Shown: in pieces, positions 1,897 through 42,485 of the stretch
Layout: each line of letters begins with the position of its first letter
How positions within the stretch are numbered: position 1 is the first letter of the stretch
From: Fimbriimonadaceae bacterium
Lineage (GTDB): Bacteria; Armatimonadota; Fimbriimonadia; Fimbriimonadales; Fimbriimonadaceae
Length of the DNA: 64,000 nucleotides
Reading direction: 5' to 3'
Assembly (NCBI GenBank): GCA_019187105.1
Contig: JABAQM010000001.1
Span: forward strand, 1,612,001-1,676,000
Position numbers and translations under genes: made by a program
The notes under the pieces: generated by a model
What the model was told of the DNA's origin: nothing
Database searches by the model: none
Seen by the model: only the letters and a program-made list of their open reading frames with translations

Positions 1897-3719
1897 TGAC
1901 GGCATTCCGAACCTTCACGTACGACGTGATCGTCGTCGGCGCGGGCGGGGCCGGTCTCCGCGCTGCCATCGAAGCTTCAGCAGCCGGCGTCAAGGTCGGC
2001 GTCATCTGCAAGTCTCTGCTCGGAAAGGCCCATACCGTGATGGCGGAAGGCGGAGTCGCAGCTGCGATCGGCAACGTGGATGACCGCGATAACTGGAAAG
2101 TCCACTTCAGCGATACCATGCGGGGCGGGCAGTATCTGAACAACCCCCACATGGCGGAGATCCATGCCAAAGAGGCGCCGGCGCGCGTCCTCGAGCTGGA
2201 AGCCTGGGGGGCGCTCTTCGACCGCACCAAAGACGGCAGAATTCTGCAGCGAAACTTTGGCGGCCACAAGTATCCGCGCCTGGCCCATGTCGGCGACCGT
2301 ACGGGCCTTGAAATGATCCGCACGCTCCAGGACCACGGCATTCACCAGGGAATCGACTTCCACATGGAGTGCACGGTCACCAGCTTGCTCGTCTCCAATG
2401 GTGCGGTTTGCGGAGCGTTCGGTTACTTTCGCGAGCATGGACAGTTCGCAGTGTTTCGGGCCAAGGCGATCGTGCTCGCGACCGGCGGCATCGGCAAGGC
2501 CTTTGCCATCACCTCCAACTCGTGGGAATACACGGCGGACGGGCATGCCCTCGCCTACCATGCCGGCGCCGAGCTGATGGATATGGAGTTCGTCCAATTC
2601 CATCCGACGGGCATGGTGTGGCCACCCTCGGTGCGCGGCATCCTGGTTACGGAGGGCGTGCGCGGGGAAGGCGGCGTCCTGCGCAACAAGGACGGCAAGC
2701 GGTTCATGTTCGACGACATTCCCGAGAACTATCGCAACCAGACCGCCAAAGACGAGGACGAGGGCTGGCGGTATGTCACCGGCGACAAGAACGCCAATCG
2801 CCCACCGGAGCTTCTCACCCGCGACCATGTCGCTCGCTGTATCAATCGGGAGGTCAAAGAAGGTCGTGGCTCGCCCCATGGCGGCGTGTTCCTCGACATT
2901 TCATGGATCAAGGCCAAGGTCCCCAACGGCGAGGAGCACATCAAGCGGAAGCTGCCGGGGATGTACCACCAGTTCAAGGAGCTGGCTGGCGTCGATATCA
3001 CGAAGGAACCGATGGAGGTCGGACCGACCTGCCATTACATCATGGGTGGCGTTCGCGTCGATCCCTTCACCCAGATGTCGACCGTGCCCGGTCTCTTTGC
3101 TGCCGGCGAATGCGCGGCGGGCCTCCATGGCGCGAATCGTCTGGGGGGCAACTCGCTTTCCGACCTCCTGGTGTTCGGCAAGCGAGCGGGCGAGCATGCC
3201 GCGGCTTTCGCCAAGTCAGACTCGACGCCGGTCGACGAATCGGAGATTCAGCATCAAATCGCCTCGGCAGCCGGCGAGGCCGAGTCGCCCTTCGGCCGTC
3301 CCGCCTCGGACGACAACGCGTTCAAGGTTCAGCGGGACCTGCAACAAGTGATGCAGCAACACGTGGGCATCGTCCGGTCGGAAGACGATATGGCCGCCGC
3401 GCTGCCGCACTTGGAGACCCTTCGATCGCGAGCGGATGCAGTGCCCGTTGAGGGCAACCGCGACTTCAATCCGGGCTGGCATACCGCACTCGACCTCGGC
3501 AATCTCCTCACGATCTCAGAGGCGATTACCCGCTCCGCCCTGTCGCGCAAGGAAAGCCGTGGCGGTCACTTTCGCGAAGACCATCCGGGCAAGAGCGAGG
3601 CGGAAGGCAAGGAAAACACCATCGTGGTTCGCGGGTCGAACGGGGAGATGGTCGTGCGCAAGGTCCCCTGCGTCGAGCAGACCGACGAGCAGAAGGCGGT
3701 CATCCAGGAAATGGGCTAG
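1896..3719 (+). CDS. sdhA: Succinate dehydrogenase flavoprotein subunit
   Basis: A 607-residue FAD subunit that oxidises succinate to fumarate in the TCA cycle and feeds electrons to SdhB. The FAD-binding dinucleotide fold YDVIVVGAGGAGLRAA starts at residue 9. KAHTVMAEGG contains the histidine (H46) that carries covalent FAD. HPTGM, PTCHYIMGGV and HGANRLGGNSLSD are the substrate-binding and catalytic segments of the family. I chose ATG 1896, which overlaps the sdhC stop by one base, rather than an in-frame start inside sdhC. No terminator separates it from the convergent gene ending at 3725. The iron-sulfur subunit is about 2.8 kb downstream rather than adjacent. Confidence 0.97.
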   Translation: MTAFRTFTYDVIVVGAGGAGLRAAIEASAAGVKVGVICKSLLGKAHTVMAEGGVAAAIGNVDDRDNWKVHFSDTMRGGQYLNNPHMAEIHAKEAPARVLELEAWGALFDRTKDGRILQRNFGGHKYPRLAHVGDRTGLEMIRTLQDHGIHQGIDFHMECTVTSLLVSNGAVCGAFGYFREHGQFAVFRAKAIVLATGGIGKAFAITSNSWEYTADGHALAYHAGAELMDMEFVQFHPTGMVWPPSVRGILVTEGVRGEGGVLRNKDGKRFMFDDIPENYRNQTAKDEDEGWRYVTGDKNANRPPELLTRDHVARCINREVKEGRGSPHGGVFLDISWIKAKVPNGEEHIKRKLPGMYHQFKELAGVDITKEPMEVGPTCHYIMGGVRVDPFTQMSTVPGLFAAGECAAGLHGANRLGGNSLSDLLVFGKRAGEHAAAFAKSDSTPVDESEIQHQIASAAGEAESPFGRPASDDNAFKVQRDLQQVMQQHVGIVRSEDDMAAALPHLETLRSRADAVPVEGNRDFNPGWHTALDLGNLLTISEAITRSALSRKESRGGHFREDHPGKSEAEGKENTIVVRGSNGEMVVRKVPCVEQTDEQKAVIQEMG

Positions 3720-5731: not shown

Positions 5732-6466
5732 ATGGCGCAGAGCGATATCCTTTCGCAGAGGCGGTGGCTCGACAAGCTGGACGAGTTCATCCAGCACTGG
5801 ACGGATGCGAATTCATCGCTCGCTCCTGGGAGCCTCGTGCTTTCCGGTGGATACGCCCTGGCGAATCTGGTCGCCGACCGGGCGGCTTTGGCGCTCGCCT
5901 TGGACGATGTGGTCGGTCGCCACAATGTCTGGACGGTCGCCATCGAGAATCGCAACCTGCGGCAGCGGTCGGTGGCGACGAGATTCAAACAGTTTGGACA
6001 GGCCGTGCGCGCATACCTGGGCGGGACCCGCTATGAGGACGCGATCCCGCGCACGCCTCGCCCGAGCGATCCGGATGGGCGCTGGCGGGTGGCCATGCAG
6101 AGCCTGCGCGACCTTTGGACGACCATCAACTTGAACACACCGCCGGTGCCCGGCTTCACCCCGCCGCTCACCCTCGCGGGCGGGTACTCCGTGCTGCTGT
6201 TTCAGGGCGAGCAGTCGCAGGTCAACACGGCGATGGACGACGTCGGCAAGGCCCGTCAGCCGCTGCGCATCGCCCGCACGGCAAGGGACGACCAGTTTGC
6301 CGCGATCTATGCGCGCCTCAAGCAGTACCGGCTGGCGGTGCAGGCGCTGTTTCCGCCCGACTCGCCCGTGCTGCTCGCCCTGCCCCGGCTTTGGAACCCT
6401 CGCAAGCGCGTACGCCGGGCCCTGGAGGTCGTCGATCCGCCCGCCAACCCGGACGACGAACCTTAG
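5732..6466 (+). CDS. Hypothetical protein with an internal duplication
   Basis: A 244-residue soluble protein of unknown function with no signal peptide. It contains two diverged copies of one unit at about residues 34-96 and 145-207. SLVLSGGYALANL...LALDDV in the first matches PLTLAGGYSVLLF...TAMDDV in the second, and RFKQFGQAVRAYL matches RLKQYRLAVQALF. Each unit is predicted mostly helical after a short strand. It has a conventional promoter and ribosome binding site. The ORF ends 42 bases before sdhB, which has its own -10 element. It may be an intruder between the parts of the sdh locus together with the AT-rich island upstream. Confidence 0.8.
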   Translation: MAQSDILSQRRWLDKLDEFIQHWTDANSSLAPGSLVLSGGYALANLVADRAALALALDDVVGRHNVWTVAIENRNLRQRSVATRFKQFGQAVRAYLGGTRYEDAIPRTPRPSDPDGRWRVAMQSLRDLWTTINLNTPPVPGFTPPLTLAGGYSVLLFQGEQSQVNTAMDDVGKARQPLRIARTARDDQFAAIYARLKQYRLAVQALFPPDSPVLLALPRLWNPRKRVRRALEVVDPPANPDDEP

Positions 6467-15308: not shown

Positions 15309-15391
15309 GACCTGGCCGATCGGCCCGCTGAGCATCGCAACATGATTCCACGTGACCCCGGTCCTGGCGCTGGAGCCGTGGGGTGTTAAGC

Positions 15392-15397
15392 TATACT
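15392..15397 (+). promoter_or_regulatory. -10 element TATACT
   Basis: TATACT ends 9 bases before the ATG at 15407, so a transcript from it would be leaderless or nearly so. It also argues against translation starting at the in-frame GTG 15383, which lies upstream of this -10. Confidence 0.5.
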
Positions 15398-15406
15398 AAC
15401 GTCCAC

Positions 15407-16420
15407 ATGTCCGGCCAGAACGGTAATGACTGGATTGTCTTGCGCAATGCGCGGGGGCACAACCTTCTGGGGGTCGATCTGGCGATCCCGAAGGGTCTTT
15501 TCACGTGCATCACCGGCGTTTCCGGAAGCGGCAAGTCGACCCTCATCCAGGACACCCTATTCCCCCGGCTGATGTACGAGATCTACGGCACGCGCGGCAC
15601 GTGGGAACCACACGACTCTATCGAAGGGCTTGAGGGGCTCGACAAGGTCATCGACATCGACCAGAGTCCGATCGGGAAGACTCCGCGAAGCAACCCCGCG
15701 ACCTATACCGGCACGTTCGATATGATCCGTGACCTGTTCACGCTCACCCCAGATGCCAAAATTCGCGGCTATAAATCAGGCCGCTTCAGCTTTAACGTGA
15801 AGGGCGGGCGGTGCGAGGCGTGCAAGGGCGACGGGATCATTAAGATCGAGATGCACTTCTTGCCCGACGTCTACGTGCCGTGCGAAGTGTGCAAGGGCAA
15901 GCGCTACAACCGCGAGACGCTCGAAGTGCGTTACAAAGGCAAGAACATCGCCGACGTGCTCGAGATGACGATCGAAGAAGCGTGCGAGTTTTTTCAGCCG
16001 CTTCCGCGCATCCACCGCAAGCTGGCGACCTTGCTGGATGTCGGCCTCGGCTACATACGCATGGGCCAGCCCGCGACGACGCTTTCGGGAGGGGAAGCTC
16101 AGCGCGTGAAGCTGGCGGAAGAATTGTCCAAACGCGCCACCGGACGGACGGTCTACATCCTCGACGAACCGACGACGGGGCTGCATTTCGAAGACGTCAA
16201 GCGGCTGCTGACGGTATTGCACCGGCTCGTCGACCAGGGCAACACGATGGTCGTCATCGAACACAACCTCGACGTGATCAAAACCGCCGACTGGATCATC
16301 GACATGGGCCCGGAAGGCGGCACCGGCGGCGGCACGGTGGTGGCGATGGGGACGCCGGAGGAAGTAGCGGATGTTCCGGGTAGCTGGACCGGGCAGTTCT
16401 TACGGGGGGTGCTGGCATGA
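15407..16420 (+). CDS. Free-standing C-terminal half of UvrA (single ABC module)
   Basis: A 337-residue protein equivalent to only the second ATP-binding module of UvrA, the damage-recognition ATPase of nucleotide excision repair; the full protein is about 940 residues. It begins [18 protein letters not shown], then Walker [18 protein letters not shown], the zinc module RCEACKGDG...[15 protein letters not shown], signature [18 protein letters not shown] and Walker [14 protein letters not shown], and ends like UvrA with FLRGVLA. Nothing like the N-terminal half lies in the roughly 100 bases between it and maeA, so it is not a recent frameshift. All second-module motifs look intact and it has its own -10 element. 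It may act as a homodimer or as an accessory to a complete UvrA elsewhere, as with drug-resistance UvrA paralogues; function is unproven. Confidence 0.9.
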
Positions 16421-17784: not shown

Positions 17785-19608
17785 ATGTCGATGATGGGAT
17801 ATGGCGTCCCCACCGGGGACGCGCCGAAGAAACTGGACCGCGAGACGCTGAGGCGGATCGTGCGGCTGTTCGTGCCGCACCGGGCGCTGGTCGTCAAGAC
17901 CCTGCTCGCGATGATCGTCGGAGTCGGCTTGGGGGTCGTGCCGCCCTACCTGCTCGGCAAGCTCTTTGACGATGGCATCGCCGCCAAGAACCTGACCATC
18001 GTGACCGAGATGTCGATCCTCACGATCGTGGTGACGCTAGCTGCCGCCGGGTTCACCCTGCTCTACGGCTGGCTCAGCGTGCTCCTCGGGCAAGAGATCA
18101 TGTGCGACATGCGGCACAAGCTCTTTGTGCACCTCCAGGGCATGCCCCTGGCGTTCTTCACCGGCACGAAGACCGGCGAAATCCAGACCCGGATGATCAG
18201 CGACGTCGGCGGCGTGCAGAACGTGGTGAGCAACACCCTGACCGATGCGCTCTCGAACTTCGCCATCCTTGTTTCGACGGTGATCGTCATGTTCGCGATG
18301 GACTGGCGCCTGACCCTCGTCAGTATCGCGCTCGTCCCGCTGATCGGCTCCTTGAGTTCGAAGGTCGGCCAGGCCGCGCGCAAAATCCGCACCGGCGTGC
18401 AGGAGCAAACCTCCGAGGTCAACTCGATGATCCAAGAAACCCTCTCCGTCTCGGGTGTCTTGCTGACGAAAACGACCGGCCGGCTCGATCTCGTGACCCA
18501 GAAGTTCGACCGCGAGAATCGCAAGCTCGCTGACTGGCAGATCAAGGCCCAAGTCCTGATGTACTCGATGTTCGGGCTCTTCCGGATGATCATGTCGCTC
18601 TCGCCCGCGGTCGTCTACTGGGTGGCGGGATGGCTACTGATCAACCAGGGCGACACGTCGCTGACGGTCGGCAAGTTGATCGCCTTCACCGCGCTTCAAA
18701 CCCGGATGTTCTTCCCGCTGACCGGACTGGCCAATTCCCAGGTCGAGGTGCTCTCGTCGTACGCCCTTTTCGGACGAATCTTCGAGTACGAAGACCTGGA
18801 CCAGGCGATCAAGGACAAGCCGGATGCAAAGCGGTTGGACCCGGGACAGGTTCTCGGTCGGGTCCAGTTCGACCACGCGACGTTTCGCTACTCGCCCGAG
18901 CTGGAAGAGCCCACGCTTGCCGACATCACGTTCACTGCCGAGCCGGGCCAGTTGGTGGCCTTGGTCGGTCCGTCGGGAGCGGGCAAGACCACCCTCACCT
19001 ATTTGATCCCGCGGCTCTGGGACGTCGAATCCGGTTCGGTCCGCATCGATGGCCACGACGTGCGGGATGTTCAACTCGCTTCCTTGCAGCAATGTGTCGG
19101 CGCCGTCACCCAGGAGACGTACCTGCTGCACGACACGATCAAGGAGAACCTTCGCGTGGCCCGGCCCGAGGCGAGCGACGAGGACCTCGTCGAAGCCTGC
19201 AAACTGGCGGCGATCCACTTTCACATCGCCTCGCTCCCGGAAGGCTACGACACCGTGGTTGGCGAGCGCGGCTACAAACTCTCCGGCGGCGAAAAGCAGC
19301 GGCTTGCGATCGCGCGGGCGATCCTCAAAGACCCGCGAATCCTCATCCTCGACGAGGCGACCTCGGCCTTGGATACCGAGACTGAGCGCCAAATCCAGGC
19401 GTCGCTGAGCACCCTCATGAAGGGCCGGACCACGTTCGCGATTGCCCACCGGCTATCCACGATCATCGCGGCAGACCAGATCCTGGTGATCGACGGCGGC
19501 CGCCTGGTCGAGCACGGCCGGCACGACGAGCTTCTCGCTCGAGGCGGGACATACCGGCGGCTTTATAACGAGCAGTTCAGGATGGAAACGACCTTGCCGG
19601 TGGGGTAA
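17785..19608 (+). CDS. ABC exporter, fused permease-ATPase (MsbA/multidrug type)
   Basis: A 607-residue half-transporter. Residues about 40-325 form the six-helix exporter domain; the ATPase has Walker A GPSGAGKTTLTYLIPRLWD (about 395), the Q-loop in GAVTQETYLLHDTI, signature LSGGEKQRLAIARAIL (about 499), Walker B ILILDEATSALD and the H-loop IAHRLSTI. It should work as a homodimer exporting a lipid or drug-like substrate; none can be named. No ribosome binding site is obvious at ATG 17785. A diverged, internally deleted fragment of a related gene lies 2.4 kb downstream at 22052-22169. Confidence 0.93.
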   Translation: MSMMGYGVPTGDAPKKLDRETLRRIVRLFVPHRALVVKTLLAMIVGVGLGVVPPYLLGKLFDDGIAAKNLTIVTEMSILTIVVTLAAAGFTLLYGWLSVLLGQEIMCDMRHKLFVHLQGMPLAFFTGTKTGEIQTRMISDVGGVQNVVSNTLTDALSNFAILVSTVIVMFAMDWRLTLVSIALVPLIGSLSSKVGQAARKIRTGVQEQTSEVNSMIQETLSVSGVLLTKTTGRLDLVTQKFDRENRKLADWQIKAQVLMYSMFGLFRMIMSLSPAVVYWVAGWLLINQGDTSLTVGKLIAFTALQTRMFFPLTGLANSQVEVLSSYALFGRIFEYEDLDQAIKDKPDAKRLDPGQVLGRVQFDHATFRYSPELEEPTLADITFTAEPGQLVALVGPSGAGKTTLTYLIPRLWDVESGSVRIDGHDVRDVQLASLQQCVGAVTQETYLLHDTIKENLRVARPEASDEDLVEACKLAAIHFHIASLPEGYDTVVGERGYKLSGGEKQRLAIARAILKDPRILILDEATSALDTETERQIQASLSTLMKGRTTFAIAHRLSTIIAADQILVIDGGRLVEHGRHDELLARGGTYRRLYNEQFRMETTLPVG

Positions 19609-19712
19609 GGGTGCGATTCCTATTGTTGATCGTCTGCCCAAACTGCCGGAAGTAGGGCCAGCTAAAAGCTGGGAGATCCGCCGACCAACATTCCCGTCTA
19701 CCGTCACTCTGA

Positions 19713-20153
19713 TCACCGAACCCGGCGCAAATTCAGGACCGTTCCATCCTTAAGCTTCAAAGTAGCGGTTTCCTTGCCCGAAACGGTCATAATCGCTCGA
19801 CTCAGTCTATCGAACCCCCTTAAGCGCACGGAAGAGGCATTGATGACGTCGTACGAGGGGGCGGGCACCTTGAGAGGACCGAAGCTCCTGTGGAATCTTG
19901 TCTCGGCTTTACCACCTGATTGCGACTGGACGGTAATAGCGTCCGGCATGAGGCTGAGTGTGAAGCCATTGAATCCTTCAAGTGGCACACCCTCCTTGGC
20001 CACTGAGAGCCATTCGCCCAATGCTTCGTGGCGTGGTGCGCCGGATCGACCAAAAGCTATGAATGCCCCAGTGGCAAGAATCAAGACGATGGCCAGGGCA
20101 ATCAGGACCGTGGTTGTCCTAGATCTTGGCATAGCGGTGTCGCCGGTATGCAT
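19713..20153 (-). CDS. Hypothetical membrane-anchored protein
   Basis: A 146-residue protein with one N-terminal membrane helix (TTTVLIALAIVLILATGAFIAF, about residues 13-34) followed by a small beta-rich exported domain (FTLSLMPDAITVQS...TATLKLKDGTVLNL). Probably tethered to the inner membrane facing outward. A start at the second ATG (20132) is also possible. No family recognised. The 100 bases between it and the ABC transporter gene hold a perfect small hairpin at 19658-19672 (CCAGCT-AAA-AGCTGG) without a T tract. Confidence 0.65.
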   Translation of the reverse strand: MHTGDTAMPRSRTTTVLIALAIVLILATGAFIAFGRSGAPRHEALGEWLSVAKEGVPLEGFNGFTLSLMPDAITVQSQSGGKAETRFHRSFGPLKVPAPSYDVINASSVRLRGFDRLSRAIMTVSGKETATLKLKDGTVLNLRRVR

Positions 20154-20362
20154 CCATCAAAGTTTTGCACATTACCCCTGCAAACCTCTTCAAATTTTGC
20201 GTGCTGCAGCATTTTCCCGCAATGGCTAATAGCCGTTCCCAACGCCAGGGATCCACAATCTGTCGTCCTTCCGGACGCTAAGCGATCGGGTTCGCACCTC
20301 GTACGTTCAGACCGCCGGGTGGTGCGCCGGAACAAACGGCCTCGTGGAGAGGCGTTGTTGCT

Positions 20363-21382
20363 CTACGGATTGCCGAGCATCCCGTAGACCTGCCTGATAA
20401 TGGTGCGCCCTTCGTTCTCGATCGCGAAGCGGCCATCCCACGACGTCGCAATAATGACGATGCGCTTGCCAGGGTTGTAGCTCGCGACGGTGTTCCAAAT
20501 GTTGTTGCCGCCCGCAAACGAGGCAAAGCGGCGCGAGGCATCTTCGACATGCAGCCCGGGCTCGAGCAGCTTGTGCTGCTCGCGCGAAATCAGCCCGAAC
20601 TCGTGGAAGGCACGGGTCCAACGGGCCAGTTCCCTTACCGTCGTGAGCATCCCACCGTTGCCGCGCAGATTCCACGAGGGACCGTCCTTATACCAAAACT
20701 TGTCCAGTGGCGTTCCAAACCGCTTCCCGTCGCTGCGGTATCCGACCGCGAGCTGGTCGGGCTTCCAACCCGGCCGCACGTATCCGGTGCGCTTCAGCCC
20801 CAATGGCTTGAATTCCAGCTCATCGATCAGAGCTTCGATGGACCGACCCGAGACCTTCTCAAGGATGGTCGCCAGCATGCTGAAACCGGAGTTCGAGTAC
20901 TCCTCCCGTTGACCGGGAGTAAAGATGAGGTCGCTGGCGAGCATCTTCGCCATGAGCTCGTCGCGCTCCATCGGCTGATAGTCCCCGCCAAATACGTCTT
21001 TGAAGCCCGCGCGGTGTTCGGCCAGAATCCTCAGCGTAATCGCCTTCTTGTCGGCGGGCACATTGTCGAAGAACTTGGATATCGGATCGTCCAAACCGAG
21101 CTTTCCTTTCTCGACAAGCTTGAACAGCGCCACGCGGACCATTGGCTTGACGATCGAGCCCATGCAGATCCCCGTATCCCGCGTAAAGGAACGCTTCGCC
21201 GCCGGGTCGGCATAACCGACGGTATGGAAGAACTTCTCCTTGCCCGCCTGTTCGACATACACCATGCCCCGGAAGGACTTGGCCTCAAGGGATTCGAGAA
21301 AGGCTGTCAGCGAGGCTGGAGTCGGCGCAGATTCTTGGCAAAGCAAGGTCGAGGCAATCAGCGTGGCGATCATGGTTACCAT
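20363..21382 (-). CDS. Class C beta-lactamase-like serine hydrolase
   Basis: A 339-residue exported protein (signal MIATLIASTLLCQESA). The serine-lysine catalytic tetrad is GSIVKP (SxxK) at about residue 75-80, and the tyrosine motif YSNSG at about 164 corresponds to YxN. GNGGMLTTVRELARWTRAF is the conserved segment of the penicillin-binding-protein/esterase group of this superfamily. The KTG-box equivalent near the C-terminus is weak (FAGGNN). Such proteins include D-peptidases and esterases; real beta-lactamase activity is not implied. It is divergent from a helix-turn-helix gene with a shared inverted repeat between them. Confidence 0.9.
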   Translation of the reverse strand: MVTMIATLIASTLLCQESAPTPASLTAFLESLEAKSFRGMVYVEQAGKEKFFHTVGYADPAAKRSFTRDTGICMGSIVKPMVRVALFKLVEKGKLGLDDPISKFFDNVPADKKAITLRILAEHRAGFKDVFGGDYQPMERDELMAKMLASDLIFTPGQREEYSNSGFSMLATILEKVSGRSIEALIDELEFKPLGLKRTGYVRPGWKPDQLAVGYRSDGKRFGTPLDKFWYKDGPSWNLRGNGGMLTTVRELARWTRAFHEFGLISREQHKLLEPGLHVEDASRRFASFAGGNNIWNTVASYNPGKRIVIIATSWDGRFAIENEGRTIIRQVYGMLGNP

Positions 21383-21397
21383 GCTTACATCCAGATC

Positions 21398-21421
21398 GTC
21401 AAAAAAGTTTCATAATTTGAC
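21398..21421. promoter_or_regulatory. Candidate operator between divergent genes
   Basis: GTCAAA at 21398-21403 and TTTGAC at 21416-21421 form an inverted repeat with a 12-base spacer in the 46-base gap between the serine hydrolase and the HTH gene. TAATTT inside the spacer and right arm could be a -10 for the HTH gene (10 bases before its ATG). Binding by that HTH protein is the natural hypothesis. Confidence 0.45.
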
Positions 21422-21428
21422 AAACGCG

Positions 21429-21971
21429 ATGAAGGACGAACACAACCTCACCGAGGCGCAGCTTGCCGTGCTGGTCGGCCCGCGAACCCATGAAGTGCTG
21501 GACGCCTTCCTGGAGCACGGCGAGCTTTCGGCAACCCAGGTCCAAACGATGCTGGGCTTTGAGAGCAAATCGGCCTACTACCAGGTCGGCAAGCTCCGCA
21601 AAGCCGGACTGCTCCTACCCGTCGAGGGTGACCAGCGGGCGAAGACCTTTCGGCCGGTCGCCAAACGGATTCGTATGCCCGAAGGGTTCCAAGGCGAGAG
21701 GTACGAACGGCTCGCGGCAAAGGCCGTATCGGCCAAGCTCAGGAGGGCCTCCCGGAGATTCGAGGCAGTCGCTGCCCGAAGCGGCCAAAGCCCCGAACTC
21801 GTCGGATGGCTGTACCTTGGCACGGCTACCCTGACGCTCTCGAAAGCTGCGTTCGAGGAGCTGACCACGAAGATCGCCAAGCTCCTACAGGATGCGGCAA
21901 ACTCAAAACCGGAGCCTGGTACGAGGAAACTACGCCTCCTGCTGGTGAGCACTCCCGACTTGGACGACTGA
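21429..21971 (+). CDS. Helix-turn-helix (ArsR-like) regulator
   Basis: A 180-residue protein. The N-terminal third is a winged helix: AVLVGPRTHEVLDAFLEHGELSATQVQTMLGFESKSAYYQVGKLRKAGLL, followed by a wing (VEGDQRAKTFRPV). The remaining helices (ERLAAKAVSAKLRRASRRFEAV...) probably dimerise or bind a ligand. Start taken at ATG 21429 because an upstream in-frame extension would run back through the divergent gene. It is the likely regulator of the serine hydrolase across the shared intergenic repeat. Confidence 0.78.
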   Translation: MKDEHNLTEAQLAVLVGPRTHEVLDAFLEHGELSATQVQTMLGFESKSAYYQVGKLRKAGLLLPVEGDQRAKTFRPVAKRIRMPEGFQGERYERLAAKAVSAKLRRASRRFEAVAARSGQSPELVGWLYLGTATLTLSKAAFEELTTKIAKLLQDAANSKPEPGTRKLRLLLVSTPDLDD

Positions 21972-22051
21972 CCGGCCCATCCGAACGTTATGGTGGCATC
22001 GGGAAGAATGTGTATCGAACGATATTGACCCAGTTATCTTCGATGCCGCTG

Positions 22052-22169
22052 TTCACAATCGCCTCGCTCCCGGAAGGCTATGACTCCGTGGTTGGCGAGC
22101 ACGGCAACAAACTTTCCAGCGGCTCTATCACGAGCAGTCCGGATGGGGTCGGTCTTGCCGGCAGGGTAT
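22052..22169 (+). pseudogene. Relic of an ABC exporter gene with internal deletion
   Basis: Bases 22052-22123 match 19220-19290 of the intact ABC exporter almost base for base (codes for IASLPEGYDSVVGEHGNKLSSG, with one extra base near 22057). At the GGCGGC/AGCGGC junction the match jumps to the very end of the exporter gene: 22117-22169 resembles 19556-19608 (RLYNEQ...LPVG and stop). In the intact gene both break points carry the same 8 bases, CCGGCGGC, at 19283-19290 and 19554-19561, so a 271-base deletion between direct repeats explains the fusion. There is no start codon, promoter or reading frame of useful length; it is debris of a second, diverged exporter copy. Confidence 0.78.
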
Positions 22170-22217
22170 CTCACCGCTCACCGGTCTCAGGACTTGCCAC
22201 TCGCCTGCAGCCAATGG

Positions 22218-23177
22218 TCAAGAAGACTTCCTTCGGCTTCTCGAAGCGGCCATGCCCAATCCGATGCCAAGAGCCAACAAGGTCCCATGTTCGGGGACCG
22301 GGTACGACGTGTAGCCCTCCCACTGAAGATCCTCGTTTGGAACGGTTACTTGCGGATCCCCGAGCCAGTTACGGGCCCAAACCGTTGGGTTGGCGGGTCC
22401 GCTGTTAAGGACCTTGCCTTCCATTGTCCAATCCGTCCCGTTGACTTCGAACGGGGTAAACGTGCGCCACACGCCGGCACCTTCGTAGAACACCACGGCC
22501 CTTGGGTCCTTCGTGTGCTTTCGCCTTCCCTTGTTTCCCCAAACCCTGTAAACGGTGTTCTCCGCGTCAATCGCCTTGTTGTGGGCATTCTTGAATGCAT
22601 CTGGATCCTGTTGCGGATCCTGCTTCCCGACATACATCTGCTCGATTTCGTGGTAAAGGACTGCAAACGCGGTCGAACCAACCGTTTCAGCGTCACCCGA
22701 TCTCGGCAGCACCGATAGATCCGAAACGTCCAAGAGTTGGTGTTTTGCGGGTTCCACATCGCGGTACCACATTCCCTTGGTGACTCCAGCAGCGTTACCG
22801 CAGACACCCAACACCACACTTACGTTGGAATTCGAGATCTCCCGCAAGTGAGCGGCAAGCTCGTTACCACCCTCCCCGATCGTCACCTTGCCAGACACGC
22901 CGTGTCTCGTCACTTCTGTTTCGGTGAGGTCACTCAGCAGTTGCAACACGTAGAGAATGTTCTCGTAGGATCCATTACCGGCGGTCCTAATGGTCAAGCC
23001 CTGACCAAACGTCGGACTAACGTGGAACACGATCGCAACGAGCGTGACAAGCAACCGACAAAAGCCCCTTGCTGAAGTCGACAACCGGTACCGACTGCAT
23101 GTCGAGAACAATTGACCATTCCAACCCTCGATGACACCCTCCCTATCTCTCCGGGCGTAATCATCACTGTATGCCAT
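22218..23177 (-). CDS. PEP-CTERM-anchored exported protein of unknown function
   Basis: A 319-residue protein with a long N-region and signal helix (FCRLLVTLVAIVFHVSPTFGQ, about residues 39-59). It ends with the tripartite sorting signal: VPEHGT, a hydrophobic helix (LLALGIGLGMAA) and a basic tail (SRSRRKS), so it should be processed by an exosortase and retained at the cell surface. The central part contains TAFAVLYHEIEQMY, which looks like a helix carrying HExxQ, but no second metal ligand is evident. The start ATG 23177 has a strong AGGAG seven bases upstream. No exosortase gene is in the window. Confidence 0.75.
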   Translation of the reverse strand: MAYSDDYARRDREGVIEGWNGQLFSTCSRYRLSTSARGFCRLLVTLVAIVFHVSPTFGQGLTIRTAGNGSYENILYVLQLLSDLTETEVTRHGVSGKVTIGEGGNELAAHLREISNSNVSVVLGVCGNAAGVTKGMWYRDVEPAKHQLLDVSDLSVLPRSGDAETVGSTAFAVLYHEIEQMYVGKQDPQQDPDAFKNAHNKAIDAENTVYRVWGNKGRRKHTKDPRAVVFYEGAGVWRTFTPFEVNGTDWTMEGKVLNSGPANPTVWARNWLGDPQVTVPNEDLQWEGYTSYPVPEHGTLLALGIGLGMAASRSRRKSS

Positions 23178-23752
23178 TTCTTACTCCTAGATTTCGACTC
23201 TTCTTGCTCACCCAGCGTAGCTAATACTCTATGTTTATCCTAGCACCCCTGCTCGACCGTCATAGTTGCATTTCAACGGCGTGCCATCCAAAATGACCTC
23301 CTCATCTGATGTTGTGGGTTAGCTCGGTTGCAATCCGGAGTGTGCTATCCTATTCGTAATCGCTATTTGGGTGGTCGCGTTATGAACATTCCAGTTCGCA
23401 ATTCGCTTTGGTCATCCAATTTGATCCCAAGTTCAAAGCGCATTACTGCTGCTACAGCAATGATAGGACCTCTGCTTCAGAATTCCTCGTTTCCCGGTAT
23501 ATTGGCAGCGAAGTATGAGTCGTTCTAACGTCGCTCGACTTACCAGAGTGGTCTGCGCAGCAAGTAACGGGACACATCTGCGACAAGTCAAGAAACACTG
23601 ACAAACAAAGGTGCGCAAGACGGTGGCGAATGGTCAATGCAGTTTTCACAAGAGCTTGTTCTGACAGATAACTGCCACTGCTAGCGGAACAGTTGTCACT
23701 GACTTCTCGCCAACAGCCGTTATCGCTTTGGGACTGGAGACCATCGCAACAG
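23178..23752. other. Intergenic, AT-richer, no supported gene
   Basis: About 575 bases of visibly AT-richer sequence. The left end holds the promoter region and ribosome binding site of the PEP-CTERM gene. A 48-codon ORF at 23382-23528 has no ribosome site or recognisable product and is not called. Nothing else is seen; composition resembles the island at 5460-5720. Confidence 0.6.
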
Positions 23753-23968
23753 TTACGTGCTTTTCCAGGACCCCTTCCAGCTGTAAGTCCGAATCTCCGA
23801 GGGTCCCCATGAACCAGGGCCGGTGACCGCCACGTCGACGATCGGGTGATCTTTGAGGAAAAGGTAACGATCCTTGTTCCGCGGATTAATCAGCATCCAT
23901 GCGGCAATGGTCAGAACCGCGGTCGATGCGAACGCAGTCTTCCAGCCCCGGCGGGTGCGGCTTGTCAT
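23753..23968 (-). CDS. Small hypothetical protein, one membrane helix
   Basis: A 71-residue ORF: basic start (MTSRTRRGWKT), one hydrophobic helix (AFASTAVLTIAAWMLI) and a short outer part ending abruptly in SWKGSWKST. It could be a truncated gene, since the outer part looks like the beginning of a domain. No ribosome site or TANNNT element is correctly placed for ATG 23968. Low confidence; it may not be expressed. Confidence 0.35.
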   Translation of the reverse strand: MTSRTRRGWKTAFASTAVLTIAAWMLINPRNKDRYLFLKDHPIVDVAVTGPGSWGPSEIRTYSWKGSWKST

Positions 23969-24034
23969 GATAGGATAAATTGAAGACCGCCTTTGAATGC
24001 CGGCGCGTTCGACTGCCGTCAAGACCGATCGGGG

Positions 24035-26287: not shown

Positions 26288-26722
26288 TTGAGCAATGCCC
26301 TTACGAGGGAGTTCCTTTTGCTGGCATTTGCGATTACCGCGCTCAGTTGTGTCGCGAGCGGCTTCCTCGGTGGCTGGTTAAGCGACCATAAGGGGTCGTG
26401 GCGAGGCGAACTGAGGGCAGTCCGCACGAAGCTCGATACCCTCATTCGAGGCTACAGAATCACAGCTGGCCGGTGGCCCCGCTCGATGTCCGAAATCGAG
26501 AGTCGCTTTCCGAAAGAGATGGAATACGACTACATCATGATCTGCCAGAACCACCCCTGGAACCATCGAGAAACAGGAACCTTGACGGACTACGTGCTGG
26601 TCCGGAACCCGGGGGGAGATCAGGCTGGCTTGATTTCGTACCGTTTCAAGTTGAAGAAGTTGAAGAACTTCATGGAGCTGTCGGTCGAAACACCAACCGA
26701 CCCGGCCGCACCAGAGCGGTAG
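26288..26722 (+). CDS. NHPWNH-motif membrane-anchored protein, paralogue 1 of 3
   Basis: A 144-residue protein: one N-terminal membrane helix (FLLLAFAITALSCVASGFLGGWL), then a pseudopilin-like helical stretch (LRAVRTKLDTLIRGYRITAGRWPRSMSEIES) and a beta-rich outer part with the conserved cluster ICQNHPWNHRETGTL. It begins at TTG 26288. The layout of one membrane helix followed by GRWP and a small outer domain recalls type II pseudopilins, but the cleavage-site motif is absent. Related genes are at 27795 and 28243. Confidence 0.62.
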   Translation: MSNALTREFLLLAFAITALSCVASGFLGGWLSDHKGSWRGELRAVRTKLDTLIRGYRITAGRWPRSMSEIESRFPKEMEYDYIMICQNHPWNHRETGTLTDYVLVRNPGGDQAGLISYRFKLKKLKNFMELSVETPTDPAAPER

Positions 26723-27794: not shown

Positions 27795-28241
27795 ATGAAG
27801 GATGAGGATAACCGCAACCGGTTAGGAATTCGGGCACCGCTCATGCTGGCTTTTGCCATCACTGCCGTAACTTGTGTAGGTTTCAGTCTCATCGCCCAGT
27901 GGCTCGGCTCCTGCAAGGGCTCATCACGTGAGGTGAGCACGGTCCGGCCAAAGCTCGAGAAGATGATCCGCAGTTACCGGAAAGAGACCGGGCGGTGGCC
28001 AAGTTCGATGGCGGACCTAGAAGGTCGGTTCAGCGGGGAGATGGATTATGAGTACGTGATGACCTGCCAAAACCACCCATGGAACCACCGAATGACGGGC
28101 ACACTAACGACCTACACCCTTATACGCCATCCGAAGGGTGATGTCGAAGGTGGGATTGCGTACCAATTCAAGCGCCAAAGAATGCTGACCTACTTGGAGT
28201 TGTGGGTTGAGGATCCGAACACGACTGTTAAGACGCAGTAA
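27795..28241 (+). CDS. NHPWNH-motif membrane-anchored protein, paralogue 2 of 3
   Basis: A 148-residue paralogue of the protein at 26288. Shared features in order: membrane helix (LMLAFAITAVTCVGFSLIAQWL), SCKGSSREVSTVRPKLEKMIRSYRKETGRWPSSMADLEGRF, MDYEYVMTCQNHPWNHRMTGTL and a beta-rich end (IAYQFKRQRMLTYLELWVED). Similarity to the first copy runs the full length, so the two arose by duplication. Its stop is directly followed by the third, broken copy. Confidence 0.67.
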   Translation: MKDEDNRNRLGIRAPLMLAFAITAVTCVGFSLIAQWLGSCKGSSREVSTVRPKLEKMIRSYRKETGRWPSSMADLEGRFSGEMDYEYVMTCQNHPWNHRMTGTLTTYTLIRHPKGDVEGGIAYQFKRQRMLTYLELWVEDPNTTVKTQ

Positions 28242-39612: not shown

Positions 39613-39747
39613 ATGAAACGAACCTACCAGCCCAATAACCGACATAAGCAGACCACGCATGGGTTTCGCGTCCGGATGCGAACGAACGACGGCCAAAACG
39701 TGCTGAAGCGACGCCGACTTCGCGGCCGCCGACGGCTCTCCCACTAA
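39613..39747 (+). CDS. rpmH: Ribosomal protein bL34
   Basis: A 44-residue basic protein of the large ribosomal subunit. It starts [19 protein letters not shown] and ends in the arginine-rich [13 protein letters not shown], the universal L34 pattern. AGGA lies 10 bases before ATG 39613. It heads the conserved rpmH-rnpA-yidD-yidC-jag order. Confidence 0.97.
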
Positions 39748-39784
39748 TTTCGCGATCAAGGGACCGAGCAAGGCACGATTCGAG

Positions 39785-40087
39785 TTGATTGTTCGCGAAG
39801 GCAAACGGGCCTCCGGCCAATTCTGCTGGCTCGCCGCCCTTCCAGGCACGGGATTGGTTGGCGTAGGAACGGCTAAGGCGATCGGGAACACGCCGCGACG
39901 GAATCGTCAAAAGCGGCGCCTCCGCGAAGCCCTTCAGCGAACGCCGTATGGAGCACTGGGCTTGGACTGGGTGGCCGTCGGGAAGCCGGCAATGGCCGAA
40001 GCTCGGTTTGATGATTTGTGCAACGAAGTGACGAAAATGGTCGATACCTTGAAACAGCGATGGGAAAGCGAATCGGAATCTGGATGA
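39785..40087 (+). CDS. rnpA: Ribonuclease P protein component; true start probably upstream
   Basis: The protein partner of RNase P RNA in tRNA 5' maturation. The RNR signature [14 protein letters not shown] and the reading [17 protein letters not shown] identify it. The only standard start in frame is TTG 39785, giving 100 residues, but this removes the conserved first helix: the in-frame codons just before read AIKGPSKARFE, matching the family F-containing start. No ATG, GTG or TTG exists between the previous in-frame stop (about 39704) and 39785; ATC at 39755 is the only near-cognate codon there. The coordinate given is the conservative one. It overlaps yidD. Confidence 0.9.
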
Positions 40088-40269
40088 TTCGGCGCTACCA
40101 GTTCGCCACCCAGTGGAAGCCGCAAACTTGTCGGTACTCCCCTTCCTGTTCCCAGTACACGCTGGAAGCCGTTGAGCGGTATGGCCTGCTCAAAGGCTCC
40201 TGGTTGGGATTCCGCAGAATCTTGCGGTGCCACCCCTTCCGATCCGGCGGATATGATCCGGTACCCTAG
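40060..40269 (+). CDS. yidD: Membrane protein insertion efficiency factor
   Basis: A 69-residue protein assisting YidC-dependent insertion. The core [46 protein letters not shown] is diagnostic. The amphipathic start [14 protein letters not shown] fits the family, so ATG 40060 is chosen, which overlaps rnpA by 28 bases; ATG 40084 in an ATGA overlap would drop that helix. Confidence 0.93.
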
Positions 40270-40287
40270 CTTTTACCTGTCGAATTC

Positions 40288-41703
40288 ATGAGCAGACCCC
40301 AACCCCGCGGCAACTTCCTGCAGACCTTACTACTGTTCACCGTTATCTTCCTTGGGTTCCAACTGATCGTTGGCCCAATGCAGCAGAAACCAGACTCGCG
40401 CAGCTCCCAAGAGCTCCTCCAGGAAGTTCAAAACCTTCACCGCAAGGGAATGGACTATTCCATTGTCTCTGCCGCCAACACCTACAAGTCGAAAGTCGAG
40501 CAAGAGCTAAAGGACAAGAAGGCACCGGCTTCGGAAATTGAAAGGGCGAAACTGAAGGCCGACATCCTCGTCGCCGACGCCCAATTCAAAGCTGGGTTAT
40601 GGCGAAAGGACTGGAACCGGCTGAACCTGGCCTATACGACGCTTTACAGTCTTCACAAGCGGTATCAAGGCGATCCGATTTGGAAGGAGAAGATCGATGT
40701 CGCGCCAACCCGCCAGAGACCGGCAACAACCATTACCCCCGAATCGCTCTGGAACGATGTTGTCACCACGCTGAGCAGCCAAAGCCGCGACCACCGTGTT
40801 CTCGATCTGATTCCCGGCTACCACTTCATCGACGCTCTGGTGGCGGTGACCGGTCGCGTCCCAGCGTTCAGTTACGCGTTTGCGGCCCTCCTGCTGGCGA
40901 TGATCGTTCGGGCCCTCGTTTGGCCGCTCGCTCAAAAGCAGTTGATGGCTTCCCGCCAAATGATGCAGCTGCAACCGCTGACCAAGGAGCTGCGCGAGAC
41001 CCTGACCAACAAGAAAACCGGCCAGGTTGACCAGCAGGAGCTGAGCGCGAAGACGATGGAGCTGTACCGCGAGTACGGAATCAATCCGTTCTCGGGCTGC
41101 CTTCCTGGACTACTTCAGGTTCCGCTGTTCCTGGTCGTGTACCAATGCATGCTGCTGTACAAGTTCGAGTTCCAGAAGGGCACGTTCCTCTGGATCAACC
41201 CGGGAACGGCAGCCAACACCAACGGATTCGTGGCGCCGAACCTTGGCGAGACCGACTGGATCTTGCTCGTCATCTACGGCGTGAGCATGATCGCCAGCAC
41301 CATGCTGGCGCCCATCAGCGACCCCGCGAACGCGCGCCAGCAACGGATCATCGGAATTTCGATGGCCGTGGTGTTCACGGTCTTCATGTTCTTCTGGCCG
41401 GCACTGCCGTCTGCCTTCGTGCTGTACTGGATCTTTACGAACCTACTCTCGATGGCCCAGGCATTCCGAGCGTACCGGCTTGCGATTCCGCCCCTCCAAA
41501 AGGTGACCACGGCCACCGGCGGCGCCTACCCGCAAAGCAAATTCATGAAAATGATGCAAAAGTATCAGGAAGAAGCCGAACGGGCGCAAACCAAGCCATC
41601 CACCAACGGCCACGCACCCGGCAACGGCAAGGCCAACCCGTCCAGCACCATTTTCCGGGGCACGGGCGGCCCAAGGGTCCAGAAACCTAAGAAAAAGAAA
41701 TGA
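40288..41703 (+). CDS. yidC: YidC membrane protein insertase
   Basis: A 471-residue inner-membrane insertase. First membrane helix FLQTLLLFTVIFLGFQLIVG. Between it and the conserved core is an outer domain (about residues 30-150) rich in charged helices (QEVQNLHRKGMDYSIVSAANT..., KADILVADAQFKAGLWRKDW) instead of the beta-sandwich P1 domain of proteobacteria. The core has VRALVWPLAQKQLMASRQM with the functional arginine of the hydrophilic groove, NPFSGCLPGLLQVPLFLVVYQ, and WPALPSAFVLYWIFTNLLSMAQ. The basic tail ends KPKKKK. ATGA overlap with jag. Confidence 0.96.
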   Translation: MSRPQPRGNFLQTLLLFTVIFLGFQLIVGPMQQKPDSRSSQELLQEVQNLHRKGMDYSIVSAANTYKSKVEQELKDKKAPASEIERAKLKADILVADAQFKAGLWRKDWNRLNLAYTTLYSLHKRYQGDPIWKEKIDVAPTRQRPATTITPESLWNDVVTTLSSQSRDHRVLDLIPGYHFIDALVAVTGRVPAFSYAFAALLLAMIVRALVWPLAQKQLMASRQMMQLQPLTKELRETLTNKKTGQVDQQELSAKTMELYREYGINPFSGCLPGLLQVPLFLVVYQCMLLYKFEFQKGTFLWINPGTAANTNGFVAPNLGETDWILLVIYGVSMIASTMLAPISDPANARQQRIIGISMAVVFTVFMFFWPALPSAFVLYWIFTNLLSMAQAFRAYRLAIPPLQKVTTATGGAYPQSKFMKMMQKYQEEAERAQTKPSTNGHAPGNGKANPSSTIFRGTGGPRVQKPKKKK

Positions 41704-42485
41704 CGATTCCCATGGAAACGATCGAAATCACCGCTAAATCTGTTGATGAAGCCAAGCAAACTGCCGCCCAAAAGCTGGGAGTCAGTACGGCTGAGGTCGA
41801 AGTTGTCGTCCTTGAAGAGACCAAAGGGCTCTTCGGAAAGGGTAGTGTCCGGGTCAAGGCTTCAACCAAGCCGGCCGAGGTCGAAAAGCCAAAGCGTGCG
41901 AGCCGGGCCAAGAAGGCCGAGCCGGTAGCTGCGGTCGCCGAAGTGGCGGTCCCCGAACCAGCGGTCGAGCCTGCCTCTGCCGACCACGACACCGAGACCG
42001 AGATCGATGGAGCCGTCGATGTCGTTGCAACCCAGCAGGATGCCGACCAGCTCACCGCACTCGTCAACGAGGTTTTGGACCTCGCCGAGCTTCAAGCCAC
42101 GGTCCATCCCACCGGATTCAACGGTAAGTACGTCAACCTTGAAATCGATGGCAAGGATGTCGCCTATCTCGTTGGCCGTCAGGGCGAAGTCTTGAACGCC
42201 TTCCAGTACCTGGTCAATGTCATGGCGGCCAAACAGTACGGCAATGGCGTCCGGGTCGTGCTCGACGGCGGCAACTATCGAAAGCGGCGCGAAGATGCGC
42301 TGCGTCGGATGGCCAGCCAAATCGCCGAGCAAGTGATCAAGCGACAAGAGGAAGCAGTCTTGGACGCCCTTCCTGCGTTTGAGCGCCGTGTCGTACACCA
42401 AGCGATTGTCGAAATTGCTGGGGTGACGACCTATAGCGAAGGCGAAGAACCCAATCGACGAGTTGTAATCGCGCCGGGAGCGTAG
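41700..42485 (+). CDS. jag: Jag/KhpB RNA-binding protein
   Basis: A 261-residue protein. The Jag-N domain (METIEITAKSVDEAKQTAAQKLGV...GLFGKGSVRVK) is followed by an acidic linker rich in Ala, Val and Glu (about 65-115), a KH domain with LVGRQGEVLNAFQYLVNV, and an R3H domain (ALPAFERRVVHQAIVEIAGVTTYSEGEEPNRRVV). KhpB proteins bind RNA and affect cell division and envelope genes in Gram-positives; the role here is inferred. Coupled to yidC by ATGA. Confidence 0.94.
   Translation: MTIPMETIEITAKSVDEAKQTAAQKLGVSTAEVEVVVLEETKGLFGKGSVRVKASTKPAEVEKPKRASRAKKAEPVAAVAEVAVPEPAVEPASADHDTETEIDGAVDVVATQQDADQLTALVNEVLDLAELQATVHPTGFNGKYVNLEIDGKDVAYLVGRQGEVLNAFQYLVNVMAAKQYGNGVRVVLDGGNYRKRREDALRRMASQIAEQVIKRQEEAVLDALPAFERRVVHQAIVEIAGVTTYSEGEEPNRRVVIAPGA

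Follow-up and report, generated by a model that had tools for sequence, protein, structure and literature searches.

A probable relic of a neighbouring ABC exporter gene, apparently shortened by a deletion between 8-bp direct repeats, in a member of the Fimbriimonadaceae

How does a stretch of some 118 bases, lying in the gap between two convergent genes, come to resemble two separate parts of a gene that stands intact 2.4 kb away? The question is raised by positions 22052-22168 of the window, by which we mean the whole stretch of 64,000 nucleotides analysed here, and its answer begins with the intact neighbour (Table 1). This gene, with a G+C content of 63%, combines a membrane domain with an ATPase domain, as is usual for MsbA-like half-size ABC exporters. 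Its best NCBIfam matches are the two families of that type, TIGR02203 and TIGR02204, but it reaches the curated cut-off of neither (423 of 602 and 411 of 780 bits, respectively), and the relic departs further from them in that it keeps pieces of the ATPase part only, most of the exporter gene being missing from it.

Table 1. Position and strand of the exporter, the relic and the features around them, with the evidence for each
Feature	Position	Strand	Evidence
MsbA-like ABC exporter, intact, 607 aa, closest source of the relic	17785..19608	+	ORF, family search
CCGGCGGC, first copy, deletion end in the ancestor copy	19283..19290	+	blastn and repeat search
CCGGCGGC, second copy	19554..19561	+	blastn and repeat search
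ORF without Pfam or NCBIfam match, between exporter and relic	19713..20153	-	ORF and family search
Serine hydrolase, beta-lactamase family PF00144, between exporter and relic	20363..21382	-	family search
Regulator-like ORF, divergent from the hydrolase, no family match	21432..21971	+	helix-turn-helix type judged by eye
Relic, first segment	22052..22123	+	90% identical to exporter 19220-19290
Junction, 8-bp repeat with one base changed	22116..22123	+	read from sequence
Relic, second segment	22116..22168	+	78% identical to exporter 19554-19607, reaching the stop codon
ORF without family match, PEP-CTERM-like tail	22218-23177		

When 22001-22260 was compared with the window by blastn there were, the self-match aside, two significant matches, both to the exporter, on the same strand and collinear with it. 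The first segment is identical at 65 of 72 positions with one gap (E = 4e-22) and the second at 42 of 54, again with one gap (E = 7e-6); their overlap is the 8-base junction word and nothing more. Taken alone against 19291-19620, the second segment has a score that was reached in none of 5000 dinucleotide shuffles, and the homology is above chance over more than one part of the gene. The two-part match proposed by the first-pass annotation is thereby borne out, with the correction that similarity stops at 22168, within the position of the intact gene's stop codon; it is neither limited to the first segment nor owed to an unrelated member of the family, the nearest relative of both segments being the neighbouring exporter. 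Beyond these limits the resemblance ends abruptly. No similarity was seen between the left flank and the upstream part of the gene, or between the right flank and 19601-19800 (scores reached by 474 of 500 shuffles in either case), and a search of 19801-40000 returned no other piece of the exporter at a significant score. The 5' three quarters of a second copy are without trace there or in the left flank, and their later loss would leave the same picture as their never having been copied.

Whether the neighbouring exporter, rather than some relative of it, is the source can be read from the differences that the relic has accumulated. Six substitutions separate the first segment from the exporter, four of which alter an amino acid at bases invariant in all 29 orthologues, with the odd state always in the relic; the other two are silent and not firmly polarised, the relic's base being found at both in L004 and at one in L056 and L057. 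The orthologues, used both here and for the tree below, came from 29 of 30 candidate loci (L004-L030 and L056-L058, with L026 not extracted), L031 and L032 (38% paralogues), L059 (partial) and L060 (distant) having been kept out beforehand. The relic agrees with the window's exporter at 63 of 69 and 32 of 41 positions, against 57 of 69 and 23 of 41 for the best of the 12 nearest others listed, and a tree of 31 sequences over 111 columns splits the two from the rest with a support of 96. Moreover, the second segment spans the C-terminal tail of the exporter, which is private to it against the 23 orthologues aligned (23 of 27 loci used). In the rest of its genome the relic has a single match, the exporter at 17785-19608, and the other exporters of that genome, among those listed, are at most 35% identical in protein. 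In a survey of the family, 11 of 85 genomes, its own included, match the relic; the other 10, out of 84, match the first segment only, in every case inside exporter-type genes (one a 35% paralogue, one a partial gene). Since the relic is nearest to the window's exporter and has its tail in common with it, and since the paralogues reach at most 35%, the duplication would have taken place in this lineage, after its split from every relative compared. The substitutions are changes of the pseudogene type, and the relic is a dead fragment. The earlier proposal of a past tandem or nearby copy that decayed is sustained in its second half by the substitutions and the tree; the complete tandem copy it implied is not, for lack of any other piece in the interval searched downstream.

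The junction carries the mark of how the copy was shortened. In the intact gene both deletion ends carry the same word, CCGGCGGC, as had been claimed, and a single copy stands at the junction of the relic; this copy has one substitution, which implies a point change before or after the deletion. Within 19220-19612 the pair is the sole exact direct repeat of at least 8 bases and sits exactly at the junction, and 9 of the 65,341 possible junctions in that interval share 8 bases, all nine being equivalent placements of this same pair. Because the whole exporter gene holds 57 repeat pairs of at least 8 bases, repeats of such length are common in a gene of 63% G+C; what matters is not the length of the repeat itself, but that the one pair available in 19220-19612 lies exactly at the junction. 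Removal of one copy of the repeat together with the interval takes out 271 bases, a number that is not a multiple of three and so shifts the frame, and the relic's reading frame is broken by this deletion and by the single-base gap in each of the two aligned segments. Deletions between short direct repeats arise through slipped replication or alternative end joining. That slippage or recombination between the repeats produced the fusion, as first suggested, agrees with the position of the deletion ends on the 8-bp repeat, although RecA-independent slippage or end joining is a route that we only infer. Bacterial deletions ending on repeats of 4-11 bp are documented (PMC8149714). In the recA mutants of Deinococcus radiodurans described there, as in the relic, the deletion ends at a short exact repeat of which one copy is kept, whereas the deletions in those mutants are large and were seen directly and the one considered here measures 271 bases and is reconstructed from a relic (PMC8149714).

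Our preferred explanation, to which we assign a probability of roughly 0.87, is therefore one of duplication followed by decay; the mode of duplication, the succession of steps and the molecular route, all of which we infer, would be as follows. The exporter gene would have been duplicated in this lineage, in full or for no less than its final 390 bases, and the downstream copy would have lost its function; 271 bases would then have dropped out between two copies of CCGGCGGC, by slipped replication or other short-homology joining, with a shift of frame; the 5' part of the copy would have been lost, or never copied; and the remainder would have drifted by point changes until about 118 dead bases were left. 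So read, the relic is probably what decay has left of the 3' end of a lineage-specific duplicate, from which a textbook deletion between 8-bp repeats removed an internal part. Like other bacterial pseudogene fragments born of duplication and decay, it is truncated, frameshifted and drifting at otherwise invariant codons beside an intact relative, and it differs from the usual case solely in that its internal deletion is traceable to a single, identified 8-bp repeat. Against duplication and decay stand the imperfect repeat in the relic, the small size of the tree (111 columns) and the want of any mark of the duplication: the left end has no recognisable repeat and the flanks have no exporter similarity, so the event itself left nothing visible. 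In addition, the lower similarity of the second segment (78% against 90%) calls either for a tail that changed faster or for a less simple history.

A different origin is suggested by what lies between exporter and relic. Relatives of the hydrolase and the regulator adjoin divergently in four other genomes (G009, where they do so several times, G012, G013 and G017), and tblastn of seven fetched loci found both partners in five and the hydrolase alone in two; the pair looks like a mobile two-gene module. Because it recurs as a unit elsewhere, its arrival as a unit, and hence an insertion of 19.6-22.2 kb, is plausible on the strength of gene order, with no timing implied. Elements that target gene ends leave a copy of the gene's 3' end on their far side, and the relic could be such a copy if the block at 19609-22051 had inserted at the exporter's 3' end or close to it. 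The topology (complete gene, block, direct 3' fragment) suits this account, as does the recurrence of the pair in those four genomes, but neither the ORFs nor family searches revealed an integrase-like gene in the block, and a duplicated gene end was found at none of seven other loci with the pair or part of it. Three of these loci are without a direct repeat, and in the other four the repeats are repeated hydrolase genes, short repeats outside genes, or not placed so as to flank the pair. We therefore consider an insertion scar unlikely. Around the block, a search of 19.2-24.1 kb for inverted repeats of insertion-sequence style gave weak pairs only (16-24 bases, 74-94% complementary), none of which frames it; a promoter and terminator scan of 19500-22300 yielded 0 and 2 sites, not above shuffles; RNA families had no match in 19000-24000; and no tRNA gene was found in the window. 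Separately, locus L156 of G017 carries short GGGAGGGCAACGCTCCGTCGTTGCCG-type repeats at 2973-3167 and 5909-6134, several copies on each side of the hydrolase/regulator pair.

The same idea can be widened: the pair would move as a unit, its arrival would have duplicated the exporter end to leave the relic as the far-side copy, and the 15-22 kb stretch, which also houses the C-terminal half of a split uvrA, away from its partner, would be a site of repeated rearrangement in this chromosome. We consider this, too, to be unlikely. Positions 15383-16420 (+) of the window match positions 609-924 of TIGR00630 in a profile search, that is, the C-terminal half of the DNA-repair protein UvrA, while the N-terminal half (TIGR00630 positions 1-611) lies about 371 kb away (L137, G000:C1:1999493-2001331); a search of the genome turned up no uvrA of full length, and UvrA is encoded there by two separate genes. 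By our reading of a match table that covers 37 genomes of this family and takes in E values up to 1e-60, UvrA is in two pieces, cut near TIGR00630 position 609, in 25, the source genome included; nine have it in one frame, two have part of the N-terminal piece only and one has none. In a second, sister family (f2), it is cut near position 241 in 11 of 14 genomes. Some of these genomes are draft assemblies, in which contig ends can mimic a cut, but both pieces are on one contig in G007, G010, G018 and G041. The halves are anywhere from 12 bases (G024) to hundreds of kilobases apart (the source genome and G018), and among the split genomes of the first family 11 were inspected, in all of which both half ORFs carry what we take, from motif patterns, to be Walker A and Walker B motifs. 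A literature search of limited depth returned no prior description of a split UvrA, and the gene deserves separate attention.

Among the genomes compared, the genus is represented by the window's own genome alone. Neither an intact second exporter at the relic's place, nor that place itself, nor an uninterrupted arrangement with exporter and relic adjacent and the block absent, was found in the relatives compared. Where 11-20 kb of context could be compared, in 18 relatives, the genes beside the exporter differ from those in the window, two weak hydrolase matches apart, and the ORF to the right of the relic (22218-23177), whose PEP-CTERM-like tail is presumed from a familiar motif, is matched in 4 of 60 relatives, weakly, partially and towards its C-terminal end. 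The closest exporter found, L056, is 81% identical and is followed by what is presumably a methionyl-tRNA-synthetase-like (metG-like) gene, to judge by its motifs, and then by the rnpA-yidC cluster. The rnpA-yidC-jag genes follow closely in L056 (13964-16830), and in the window they are found in the same orientation at 39707-42485, with 20 kb between them and the exporter. No remnant of a metG-like gene was detected in the window at a significant score. This hints at a rearrangement or large insertion downstream of the exporter, between 19.6 and 39.7 kb, which a single relative makes impossible to date. Within that interval, two small same-strand ORFs without Pfam match (26288-26722 and 27795-28241) have translations identical at 69 of 127 aligned columns and represent a nearby gene duplication.

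Two further accounts dispense with a decaying local duplicate. In one, a polymerase engaged in break repair switched template, copied two short stretches of the exporter with a jump at CCGGCGGC and pasted in the 118 bases, so that neither a full second copy nor a deletion ever existed. Both ends of the relic are indeed abrupt, with nothing else of the exporter in 19801-40000, a junction repeat suits a jump as well as a slip, and such an insertion would yield identical bases; yet the relic runs up to the stop codon of the gene and no further, which is what a remnant of a gene copy would do, and an insert made of two collinear pieces in their original order and orientation is the more special case, so that we rate template switching as improbable. 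That the relic is instead what remains of an exporter acquired from another species is very improbable, for although exporter genes of this type sit in differing neighbourhoods among the relatives compared, the tree places it with the exporter of the window (support 96), whose private C-terminal tail it shares.

Read as duplication and decay, the relic opens no new question alone, being a matter of ordinary gene decay, and it offers a clean, small example of a bacterial gene copy that decays by way of a deletion between short repeats while its intact template survives next to it. It can also serve as a dating mark: its presence or absence in another genome of the same genus would show in what order the duplication and the deletion took place and the hydrolase/regulator pair arrived.
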